Source of the DNA: Acidobacteriota bacterium
Lineage (GTDB): Bacteria; Aquificota; Aquificia; Aquificales; Aquificaceae
Direction of reading: 5' to 3'
DNA: 64,000 nucleotides
Assembly (NCBI GenBank): GCA_003696155.1
Contig: RFFP01000012.1
Coordinates: 1-64,000 of the forward strand
A program made the position numbers and the translations under genes. The notes under the pieces are model-generated. The model saw only the letters and a list, made by a program, of their open reading frames with translations, searched no databases and was not told where the DNA came from. Every line of letters starts with the position of its first letter. Within the stretch, counting starts at the first letter, position 1. Shown one piece after another: positions 14,379 through 17,494 of the stretch.

Positions 14379-14407
14379 ATTATAGCCTTCTCCTTGCACG
14401 CTGTCAA
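14379..14407 (-). promoter_or_regulatory. Consensus sigma-70 promoter for tRNA-Glu
   Basis: TTGACA (14402-14407) and TATAAT (14379-14384) are both perfect and are separated by 17 bp on the minus strand. It is the strongest promoter in the window. It overlaps the bpsA stop (14404), so the tRNA (and possibly gyrB) is uncoupled from bpsA. The -10 box ends 13 nt before the mature tRNA 5' end. Confidence 0.85.
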
Positions 14408-15471
14408 GTAGTTGAGCCCTCCTCGTCAAGGTAAAAAACCTCATCCCCTATGGGCTCGTTCCATCTTTTAAAGCCCGGTAGAGCCTCAACCCTATACCAG
14501 GCAGACCTATACCAAACACCCTTTGGGTTTCTCCTCACCGGCGCTATCTCGGCCGCCTTTGTTTCAGGATGGTAGTCCCAAGTTATGTAGGCGTTGAAGT
14601 CCTGAACTATGTCTGTTATGGCCACTCCAAACTCTGTGGTAAGGGATACCTGGAAGTCCCTCCATCTAAAGACCGAGGAGTCTCTGAGAGTTAGCCCAAA
14701 GTACCCCACACCACCCTCTTCTCTGAGTGTGGCTATGCCTCTGCCTATGAAGGCTCTAAAAGCTGGCAGGGTCTCTGGAGGGTCGGATACGAAAACATCG
14801 TACCTGCCTAGTACCTCTTCTGGGAAGGGGTTTCTAAGGTCCCATACCTTAGCTTCTGCGTTGTCTATACCTAGCTCTTTAAAAATTCTGTTGTCAAATT
14901 CTATAAGCCTTTTGTCTATGTCTATTACCAAGACGCTCCTTGCCTTTCTTGATAAGGCAACGGCAAGACCTGTCAGATCGTCCTCTGCACCCAACACTAA
15001 TATGTCCTTGTTTCTCAGGTCACCCCTTGAATCCATGAAGAGGACCCTGGAAACGGTGGTCTCTGGCGTCACAGAGCCTTGGTCGTAGTCCCTTATAGCC
15101 CTGGGTCTGTCCTTGGTTACCTGAAGAAACTCCCTGTAAAAGTCTATGTCCGTATAGAAGGGTATGCCTCTGCCTTCGCAAGCCTGGCACACATATTCAA
15201 CATAAGGCTCTATCCCTAGTTCACGTACAAGGTCAAGCCCTTTCTGAGAGAGCCTTATGTTCTCCTCATCGTCTATAAAGGCATAACCTCTTTCTATTAA
15301 TGTCCTTACTATGCCAGAGGCTGCGGGCACGGGCAGGTCTGCCATATCTACAATTTCCCAGAAGTCTCCGCTCCTTAAAAGGGCAGAGAAGACACGCTCC
15401 ACGCTCTTCTTATATACACGCACACCGCCAATTTCCTTTGCCCTTGTTGCAAGCTCTACAAGGATGTTCAA
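14404..15471 (-). CDS. bpsA: N4-bis(aminopropyl)spermidine synthase (branched-chain polyamine synthase)
   Basis: The product is about 355 aa, close to the archaeal BpsA length. It has an N-terminal winged-helix region (about 1-95), then an aminopropyltransferase fold. That fold carries an acidic GAEDDLTGLAVAL nucleotide loop (GDDD-like) and SDPPETL, matching the DPPET active-site motif. BpsA adds aminopropyl groups to spermidine to make quaternary branched polyamines that stabilise DNA and RNA at high temperature. The TTG at 15471 is chosen because GGAGGTG is ideally spaced; codons upstream to 15522 have no ribosome-binding site. Confidence 0.88.
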   Translation of the reverse strand: MNILVELATRAKEIGGVRVYKKSVERVFSALLRSGDFWEIVDMADLPVPAASGIVRTLIERGYAFIDDEENIRLSQKGLDLVRELGIEPYVEYVCQACEGRGIPFYTDIDFYREFLQVTKDRPRAIRDYDQGSVTPETTVSRVLFMDSRGDLRNKDILVLGAEDDLTGLAVALSRKARSVLVIDIDKRLIEFDNRIFKELGIDNAEAKVWDLRNPFPEEVLGRYDVFVSDPPETLPAFRAFIGRGIATLREEGGVGYFGLTLRDSSVFRWRDFQVSLTTEFGVAITDIVQDFNAYITWDYHPETKAAEIAPVRRNPKGVWYRSAWYRVEALPGFKRWNEPIGDEVFYLDEEGSTT

Positions 15472-15505
15472 TTTACACCTCCGGAAGCTTAAGATAGATA
15501 AAGTT

Positions 15506-15517
15506 TTATAATTATAA
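15506..15517. promoter_or_regulatory. Palindromic, potentially bidirectional -10 region
   Basis: TTATAATTATAA is a perfect 12-bp palindrome between the divergent bpsA (minus) and the plus-strand orphan gene at 15535. It offers TATAAT or TATAAC on both strands, so one melted region could fire both ways. Both genes have good ribosome-binding sites (GGAGGTG for bpsA, AAAGGAGA for the plus gene). Confidence 0.5.
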
Positions 15518-15534
15518 CACAAAAGGAGACTAAC

Positions 15535-16203
15535 ATGGATTTGCAGGCTTTTACAAAGTCCGATTCCCTAAGCCTTGAAGGGCTTATGGAGAATAAACCC
15601 GATCTCTTTGAACCCTTCAAAAGCTGGGAGGAACTAAAACCAACTTTTAGCCTCCATACTACGGGGGACTGCCTTCTTATAAGAGCTCACATAGAGGATG
15701 GTGACTTTGAGAAGCTCCTCGGAATATTTCAAAGCAAAGAGGAAGCCATGGGTGCCTTCCTGACCTTGGCTATGGAGTACGGATGGGAAGAGGTGCCAAA
15801 GGGCTACTGTGTATACCATGCCCAGGAAGAGGGGGGAAGGCTGATAGCGGGCATAAAGCTGGGGGATAAGGTCCAGCTCTATGAGCAGACTAACCTTGAG
15901 GAGATGGTCCAGGCTATGGTGAGAGTGTCGAGGATAGTTGTTTACTCCTCAGAAGTGCTGACGTACATAAAGGACATCTATCCCGAGGTGGACAGCAAAG
16001 CCTATGTGATAGCTAGGGAGATAGCCAAAAGGGTTGGAAGGGCACCGGAGATAGAAGAGCTTGCCAAAATATACGGTCTGAGCGTACAGAGGCTTGAGGA
16101 GAAGCTTGAACTTATAGACAAGCTTTTAGAGAACCCTATCAGGCTACCCTGGGGTGAGGTGGAGCTTCCTCATTACAGCCTTCCCCTTGGAGCCTGTCAA
16201 TGA
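15535..16203 (+). CDS. Conserved-looking protein of unknown function with C-terminal HTH-like segment
   Basis: I do not recognise a family for this 222-aa protein. Residues 1-145 look like a mixed alpha/beta domain. Residues about 146-185 (AREIAKRVGRAPEIEELA, then a GLSVQRLEEKLEL-type helix) resemble sigma-70 region 3, as found in sigma factors and anti-sigma partners. It has a clear AAAGGAGA ribosome-binding site. It is divergent from bpsA across a palindromic promoter and overlaps hisG tail to tail by 65 bp. A regulatory role is only a guess. Confidence 0.7.
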   Translation: MDLQAFTKSDSLSLEGLMENKPDLFEPFKSWEELKPTFSLHTTGDCLLIRAHIEDGDFEKLLGIFQSKEEAMGAFLTLAMEYGWEEVPKGYCVYHAQEEGGRLIAGIKLGDKVQLYEQTNLEEMVQAMVRVSRIVVYSSEVLTYIKDIYPEVDSKAYVIAREIAKRVGRAPEIEELAKIYGLSVQRLEEKLELIDKLLENPIRLPWGEVELPHYSLPLGACQ

Positions 16204-16789
16204 TCTCCAGAATCTCTCTGCGCATATTCCTATAGCTTGCCTTGTTGCAAACGAGCGTGGCCGTTGATGTGGCTATCTCTTCCATAACCACCAAGTTGTT
16301 TTCCTTTAGTGTCCTTCCTGTCTGCACCAGGTCCACTATAAAGTCTGAAAGCCCTATAAGTGGTGCAAGCTCTACGGAACCGCTTAGGGGCACCACCTTA
16401 CACTTTATAGCTCTTTCGCCAAAGAAATCCAAGGCTATGTTTGGGTACTTGGTAGCCACCCTAAGGTAGGAGCTCTTCCTGTAGAGATCTTTATTTTCTT
16501 CCTTTCCAGCCACCACTATCCTGCAAAAGCCTATACCAAGGTCATAAAGGGTGTATAAGTCTGGTTTTCTCTCCATAAGCACGTCCCTACCCACCACCCC
16601 AAGGTCTGCAACCCCGTTTTCCACGTATACGGGCACATCGAAGGGCTTTACAAGAAAGAACTCAAAGCTTCCAGCCATTATGCTCAGTTTCCTTCCCTCC
16701 TCCAGTCTCTCCTCTAAGAGACCTTTTTTTAAAAGGAGTTCCACACTTTCCTCAAAGAGCCTACCCTTTGGCAGAGCTATGCGAAGCAT
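16139..16789 (-). CDS. hisG: ATP phosphoribosyltransferase, short form
   Basis: The 216-aa enzyme joins ATP and PRPP in the first step of histidine synthesis. It begins MLRIALPKGRLFEESVELL, carries GVADLGVVGRDVL, and has the PRPP loop DLVQTGRTLKENNL. Its length marks the short HisG_S form, which lacks the regulatory C-terminal domain and normally needs HisZ (not seen here). The 3' 65 bp overlap the convergent orphan gene. The -10 box lies 6 nt from the ATG with no ribosome-binding site. Confidence 0.95.
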   Translation of the reverse strand: MLRIALPKGRLFEESVELLLKKGLLEERLEEGRKLSIMAGSFEFFLVKPFDVPVYVENGVADLGVVGRDVLMERKPDLYTLYDLGIGFCRIVVAGKEENKDLYRKSSYLRVATKYPNIALDFFGERAIKCKVVPLSGSVELAPLIGLSDFIVDLVQTGRTLKENNLVVMEEIATSTATLVCNKASYRNMRREILEIIDRLQGEGCNEEAPPHPRVA

Positions 16790-16795
16790 GGTTAT

Positions 16796-16801
16796 AGTAT
16801 A
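16796..16801 (-). promoter_or_regulatory. -10 element placed for a leaderless hisG transcript
   Basis: TATACT on the minus strand ends 6 nt before the hisG ATG (16789). The intervening ATAACC gives no Shine-Dalgarno sequence. It lies in the 15-bp gap after birA. Confidence 0.4.
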
Positions 16802-16804
16802 CCC

Positions 16805-17494
16805 TTACTTCATAAACAACCTAAGGCTTATATCCCCTACCGTAAAATTCCTCTCTCCCTCGTGGGTGATAAGTACTAGGCTTCCATCTGTTGCAAGACC
16901 CTTAAGTATGCCTACGACTGGTTTTGGGGTGTAGAGCACCACCTCTTGGTCCTTGTAGAGAAGTATGCTCTCTATGTGCTCTTTAAAAGCTCTAAAGCCA
17001 TCCCTTTTAAGAAGGTCCAAAGCTCCAGCCAAAGAGTCAAAAAGCTCTAAAAGCACATCAACCTCTCTGTAGGTTTTTCCTGAGACCACGCTTAAGGATA
17101 CCGCCTCCAGCTCCCCTGGGAACTCCTTCTGGTTTAGATTGAGTCCTATGCCGACGTAGAGCCTGTCCTTTGAGCTTTCACACAGCACTCCACACACCTT
17201 TTTACCCATAAGATAGAGGTCGTTGACCCATTTTATGGCTGGCTTTAGCCCCTCTTTCCTGAGGTACTCACCTACGGCGTAGGCCACAACAAGGGGAACA
17301 CAATCCTCATCCTTAAAACCCCTATTTAAAGAAAAGCTAAAGTAAAGCCCACCAGCTTCAGAGTGCCAGCGCCTTCCCATACGCCCCCTTCCCGACCTCT
17401 GCCTTCTAGCAACCACCACGCTATGTGGAGGTAGGCCCTTTATAAGGTTCTGTGTTGAGCCTGTCTCCTCAAGCCATAGGAGCCTTTCAAACAT
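16805..17494 (-). CDS. birA: Biotin--[acetyl-CoA-carboxylase] ligase
   Basis: The 229-aa enzyme activates biotin as biotinyl-AMP and transfers it to carboxylase carrier proteins. The biotinyl-AMP loop reads SGRGRMGRRWHSEAGGLYFS, followed by AIKWVNDLYLMGKKVCGVL. It lacks the N-terminal DNA-binding domain of E. coli BirA, so it should not act as a repressor. It starts 8 bp inside the end of hydA and is therefore the last gene of the hydrogenase operon. Confidence 0.94.
   Translation of the reverse strand: MFERLLWLEETGSTQNLIKGLPPHSVVVARRQRSGRGRMGRRWHSEAGGLYFSFSLNRGFKDEDCVPLVVAYAVGEYLRKEGLKPAIKWVNDLYLMGKKVCGVLCESSKDRLYVGIGLNLNQKEFPGELEAVSLSVVSGKTYREVDVLLELFDSLAGALDLLKRDGFRAFKEHIESILLYKDQEVVLYTPKPVVGILKGLATDGSLVLITHEGERNFTVGDISLRLFMK

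Follow-up and report, generated by a model that had tools for sequence, protein, structure and literature searches.

Our analysis suggests that the gene beside bpsA in an Aquificaceae genome may encode an acidic, non-catalytic adaptor with a DnaQ-like fold and an ACT-like N-terminal domain, and that it would have a promoter in common with bpsA through an economy specific to its lineage. We regard this overall reading as evenly balanced between right and wrong. The earlier lead, a regulator of branched polyamines resembling a sigma factor, was weak; the one that takes its place can be tested, a nuclease-fold protein that has apparently lost catalysis. The gene is kept at differing genomic sites across a single thermophile family. 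Should the reading be confirmed, the protein would define a pseudo-exonuclease family that has no name in current libraries.

The window is the whole stretch of DNA that was analysed, 64,000 nucleotides long. The gene and its neighbors are located in it as follows.

14404 to 15471, minus strand: bpsA, branched-chain polyamine synthase (Pfam BpsA_C, 332.6 bits, E 1.6e-99).
15535 to 16203, plus strand: the gene, an ORF with an ATG start encoding a 222-aa acidic two-domain protein (pI 4.76); 48 of the 136 phylum genomes have a relative.
16139 to 16789, minus strand: hisG, named by eye from the sequence, convergent with the gene and overlapping its 3' end by 65 bp.

The 222-aa ORF is a real gene, as the preliminary description had stated. 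Its ATG is preceded by GGAG at 15525-15528. The gene and bpsA are divergent and separated by 63 bp. The start codon of bpsA is TTG at 15471, with GGAGG at 15478-15482 ahead of it. In the region of overlap with hisG (16139-16203), we observed that the alignment reaches only residue 200 in other loci of the genus with HisG (L002, L003, L004 and L006).

No Pfam or NCBIfam family matched the protein above its curated cut-off. Across 25 members of the family only weak matches were found, the best having E values of 0.0011 in Pfam, 0.0092 in NCBIfam and 0.0013 in PHROGs. A search of solved structures by sequence returned two chance-level rows, and a literature search found no paper on the protein among the publications retrieved. 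A resemblance to NCBIfam PRK00809 (E 0.054) was considered and rejected; in the protein's own genome, the search led only to another place, in a 78-aa frame (E 0.0105). Alignment A1 has 25 rows representing 24 different proteins, L002 and L049 (both genome G010) being identical. Alignment A2 comprises the window and 24 of the 26 named loci, with the fragments L055 and L073 left out.

AlphaFold2 modelled the protein from 25 sequences with a pLDDT of 94.6 and a pTM of 0.87. Two domains are predicted.

15535 to 15795, plus strand, codons 1-87: predicted N-terminal ferredoxin-like (ACT-like) alpha/beta domain, from a model of residues 1-92 alone.
15796 to 16200, plus strand, codons 88-222: predicted exonuclease fold of the DnaQ-like / RNase H-like type, in which the ExoI acids are not conserved where expected, from AlphaFold2 and VIA-align.

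Structural comparison with VIA-align aligned residues 87-216 with the DnaQ domain 8h18 (Z 10.0, rmsd 3.5, 122 residues aligned). The DnaQ domain 8h2f gave 121 aligned residues, and DNA polymerases gave Z values of 9.4-8.6. We take the polymerase matches to cover their exonuclease region. All 50 matches listed are DnaQ domains or DNA polymerases. From residue 91 the elements of the model follow the order E-E-E-H-E-H-(short H)-E-H-H-H, which is the order in DnaQ. Modelled in full, the protein is predicted to have a DnaQ-like domain behind a ferredoxin-like domain, which speaks against the sigma-like helix-turn-helix that had been proposed for it. The predicted fold of residues 88-222 is shared, at Z 10.0-8.6, with the DnaQ-like DEDD 3'-5' exonucleases (8h18, 8h2f and the exonuclease domains of family-B polymerases). 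Unlike them, the protein has no conserved D or E at the expected ExoI positions, has no sequence-profile support and carries an extra N-terminal ferredoxin-like domain.

Other comparisons were negative. Foldseek yielded nothing at E <= 0.001, and none of its 50 matches listed is a DnaQ domain. Many of these are cores of HIV integrase, likewise an RNase H-like fold. When the family was compared by hhalign with two exonuclease families of the phylum, RNase_T (30 proteins) gave a probability of 3.7% and PolB_exo2 (26 proteins) 0.5%; the RNase_T score was beaten by one of 100 shuffles. The RNase_T and PolB_exo2 profiles recognized each other at 92.9%, in a comparison confined to these two families. 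Global hhalign with the C-terminal domain alone gave no useful alignment. It is the predicted fold alone that suggests kinship with exonucleases. Descent from the N-terminal-plus-exonuclease module of a family-B polymerase was also considered and set aside; VIA-align matches spanning residues 2-222 add few residues over those starting from 88-90.

The N-terminal domain modelled alone (residues 1-92) reached a pLDDT of 92.9. Among its VIA-align matches, designed ferredoxin folds and ACT domains predominate, other ferredoxin-like folds also occur, and the best Z is 6.4. The likeness lies in the order of strands and helices, whereas no ACT family matched the protein by sequence. The domain could be a ligand sensor that binds a small metabolite, with a degenerate C-terminal domain relaying the signal to a partner. 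The presence of ACT domains of Rel, SerB, aspartate kinase and TyrR among the matches, an identity that we partly presume, is consistent with such a role. However, Z values of at most 6.4 may reflect a common arrangement alone, and conservation along the protein is lowest over residues 1-55 (mean 0.45). We consider the ligand sensor unlikely.

In the C-terminal domain, the register of the catalytic positions was inferred from the order of the elements. In this register, the ExoI motif DxE was not found in the first strand in the 25 members. Where its D and E are expected, position 95 is H in all 25 and position 97 is acidic in 8. The likely ExoII and ExoIII positions, also read from the element order, are T143, present in 25 of 25, and 193, which is hydrophobic (L, F or V). 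The conserved DEDD catalytic acids appear to be lost. The active site may be different or shifted. The residues invariant in the 25 members include E81, E85, H95, E122, T143, K146, D147 and D153. An active nuclease or other hydrolase with an RNase H-like fold might use some of them (H95, E122, D147 and D153, not DEDD) in an altered or shifted metal site. The predicted DnaQ-like fold and the several invariant polar residues would fit such an enzyme, as would the residue at position 99, where the first strand ends: it is D or E in 20 members. However, the expected ExoI positions hold no conserved D or E, and the protein is acidic; activity of this kind seems unlikely to us. The same genome has RNase_T-type exonucleases in two places, plus a PolB_exo2-like one, all active-looking and belonging to the superfamily of this fold. 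Locus L165 (G000:C2:5780-6187) is a PolB_exo2/RNase_H_2-type exonuclease in a 358-aa frame, in which the motifs FDVET, YNGEGFD and YNAKDA are apparently intact.

The family is acidic throughout, with pI values of 4.49-5.04 in 25 of 25 members. The median pI is 9.05 for the RNase_T/DnaQ proteins of the phylum (n=30) and 5.99 for PolB_exo2 (n=26; 26 of 30 loci gave an ORF with the required motif). For 11 proteins of the window, the gene's product among them, it is 5.70. The acidity is unusual, and the contrast with PolB_exo2 is smaller than that with RNase_T.

These observations are consistent with the following mechanism. The protein would have two parts, a ferredoxin-like (ACT-like) domain at the N terminus and, behind it, a DnaQ-like 3'-5' exonuclease fold that has apparently lost its catalytic acids. 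It would most likely be a non-catalytic adaptor that works by binding another protein. This step, taken by itself, is put forward tentatively, at less than an even chance. DnaQ-type domains in polymerases bind partners from nucleic-acid metabolism, and the partner here could come from nucleic-acid metabolism as well. The N-terminal domain might serve as a sensor or dimerization module. The link with bpsA would come from one lineage's bidirectional promoter of the symmetric kind and not from a polyamine-specific circuit. A more speculative possibility is that the Aquificaceae have a new family of strongly acidic, catalytically dead proteins with an exonuclease fold and an ACT-like sensor ahead of it. 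Such proteins might mimic nucleic acids or serve as decoys, or might replace a proofreading-type subunit without cleaving, and would tune the enzymes of replication or RNA decay in thermophiles. We think this improbable.

The adaptor reading must also accommodate a local likeness to sigma factors, which lies in the following stretch.

15997 to 16125, plus strand, codons 155-197: the greater part of the stretch resembling sigma-70 region 3, within the last helices of the predicted DnaQ-like domain.

The likeness of a C-terminal segment to sigma-70 region 3 had prompted the idea of a regulator with a helix-turn-helix. Pfam Sigma70_r3 (PF04539) matches residues 159-193 with E 0.0011 and 19.5 bits, below its gathering score of 25.3, and is matched by 5 of 25 members at E <= 1. 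NCBIfam sigma models gave weak matches in a few members (best E 0.0092), and in the window's protein this match is confined to residues 159-192. By hhalign, the family profile matched that of 30 long sigma factors from the phylum at 55.8% over 46 columns (residues 155-204). This match scored 40.2; the reversed family scored 25.0, and none of 100 column shuffles exceeded 23.1. Because it beats 100 of 100 shuffles, the local sequence similarity is real, and this part of the earlier claim stands. It extends over about 46 residues.

The predicted structure suggests a different context for these residues. In the model, helices are located at 159-167, 173-179 and 187-196, all inside the alignment with DnaQ. 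Since 122 of the 130 residues of 87-216 align to DnaQ, most of the sigma-like helices must belong to the predicted DnaQ-like fold. The median net charge per 100 aa is 0.0 for the stretch 155-197 and +11.6 for RpoD region 3, which could be extracted from 24 of the 30 sigma loci. No Pfam model of sigma region 2 or 4 is among the families matched by the 25 members at E <= 1. Unlike sigma-70 region 3, the stretch is thus below the cut-off, embedded in another predicted fold, neutral and without other sigma regions found. The predicted structure speaks against a sigma or helix-turn-helix domain.

A profile search of 136 genomes of the phylum found matches in 52 at E <= 0.1. Four with E values of 0.06-0.07, short and in frames of 314-1128 aa (G024, G040, G100 and G133), were left out of the count, which gives the 48 genomes with relatives. 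All 48 are among the 64 genomes of family f1, the window's own family. The 26 named loci comprise 22 assigned to Aquificaceae, Hydrogenobacter, Thermocrinis or Hydrogenobaculum and four to Aquificota only. In the searches made, the sequences place the gene in Aquificaceae only. The four genomes of genus g3 (G015, G024, G031 and G087), three of them 99% complete, contain no convincing relative, so the gene seems dispensable there. A first match in G015 (E 4.6e-4) was rejected; its frame resembles seryl-tRNA synthetase by eye and is absent from the profile search. Phage or plasmid origin was rejected likewise. No relative was found in plasmids or in viral contigs (28 pattern matches, none confirmed), and a search for similar folds in BFVD produced no match at E <= 0.001. 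The relative at L012 (genome G002) apparently has no Shine-Dalgarno and ATG region and contains an in-frame TAA. It seems to be a decaying copy or an assembly error.

The preliminary description had tied the gene to thermophile-specific polyamine production through its neighbor, and had asked whether the neighborhood is conserved in other Aquificota. We found that bpsA adjoins the gene in 13 of the 48 genomes, namely all 12 gene-bearing genomes of g1, the window's genus, and the sole g5 genome. In the other 35 adjacency was not seen, although it may have been missed near contig ends (e.g. G075). In G081, bpsA is 7.5 kb from the gene on the same contig. In G062, G074 and G075 the gene is present and no bpsA was found in the assembly. 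Outside the bpsA-linked genera, the neighbors named by eye are rlpA-like, smpB-holB-like, nadB-like and pgpA-like. bpsA itself is found in 126 of the 136 genomes and in all 30 genera, including families without a convincing relative of the gene. In the tree, g1 and g5 cluster with support 85/82, so the bpsA link may have a single origin in the ancestor of the two. The g5 branch is long and its placement is therefore unsure. An older link may also have been lost elsewhere. The adjacency in two clustered genera, the wide occurrence of bpsA and the recurrence of the palindrome core in the genome described below argue against the polyamine link.

A DNA-binding regulator, with its sigma-region-3-like helices on promoter DNA and controlling both bpsA and itself from the common promoter, would account for the shuffle-proof similarity, the hhalign and NCBIfam matches to sigma factors and the divergent arrangement in 12 of 12 genus loci, but is very unlikely given the predicted fold covering those helices, an acidic family in which the stretch is neutral, in contrast to the basic region 3 of RpoD, the lack of Pfam sigma region 2 or 4 matches and the 35 gene-bearing genomes in which bpsA adjacency was not seen.

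The adaptor reading instead attributes the arrangement to the promoter, which is presumed to contain these elements.

15506 to 15517, no strand assigned: the 12-bp palindrome TTATAATTATAA, whose core (15507-15516) is two overlapping head-to-head TATAAT boxes.
15507 to 15512, plus strand: TATAAT box presumed to be the -10 of the gene; all 12 genus loci retain it.
15511 to 15521, minus strand: presumed extended -10 of bpsA (TGTGN TATAAT in the minus-strand reading).

The perfect palindrome reported earlier is exact. Located between the ORF and bpsA, it is the sole match to TTATAATTATAA in the window at one mismatch or fewer, where shuffles gave a mean expectation of 0.17. Among the 12 genus loci (the window and L002-L012), the full 12-mer is present in the window alone, and the inner 10-mer TATAATTATA is exact in 10. 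The 10-mer is self-complementary, so TATAAT can be read on both strands with a two-base overlap. The two exceptions, L009 and L011, keep the gene-side TATAAT and have an altered bpsA-side box. One base ahead of that box, a TG is conserved in 12 of 12 loci. We take this TG with the box toward bpsA to be what is termed an "extended -10". In genus g5 the divergent arrangement with bpsA is retained and the palindrome is not. A consensus scan of 15000-17000, which requires two hexamers, found no sigma-70-type promoter. The claim of a common palindromic promoter is thus borne out for conservation of the 10-mer within the genus and not for the full 12-mer; from its sequence, we infer that the palindrome may drive both genes. 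In this genome, sharing a conserved palindromic promoter says little about whether two genes are functionally linked.

Symmetric bidirectional promoters were reportedly treated by Warman and colleagues in Nature Microbiology in 2021. The palindrome resembles this class in having a self-complementary -10 common to divergent genes, TATAATTATA at 15507-15516. No difference is apparent, the present case being known from sequence. Passages of Warman et al. (2026; PMC12825309) describe -10 symmetry as permitting divergent transcription. The palindrome looks like an ordinary symmetric bidirectional promoter of this published class.

The 10-mer TATAATTATA occurs 13 times in this genome, compared to twice for a reversed control pattern. 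At 10 of the 13 copies, ORFs of at least 90 aa or tRNAs start within 200 bp on both sides, as a raw count. By its sequence context, TATAATTATA is a recurrent promoter-like element of this genome. Several of the copies (loci L230-L242) have an ATG or GTG 2-8 bp past the 10-mer without a Shine-Dalgarno sequence. At L234, L238, L240 and L242 such start codons, again 2-8 bp off and without Shine-Dalgarno, are found on both sides. This suggests leaderless mRNAs running both ways from a single -10.
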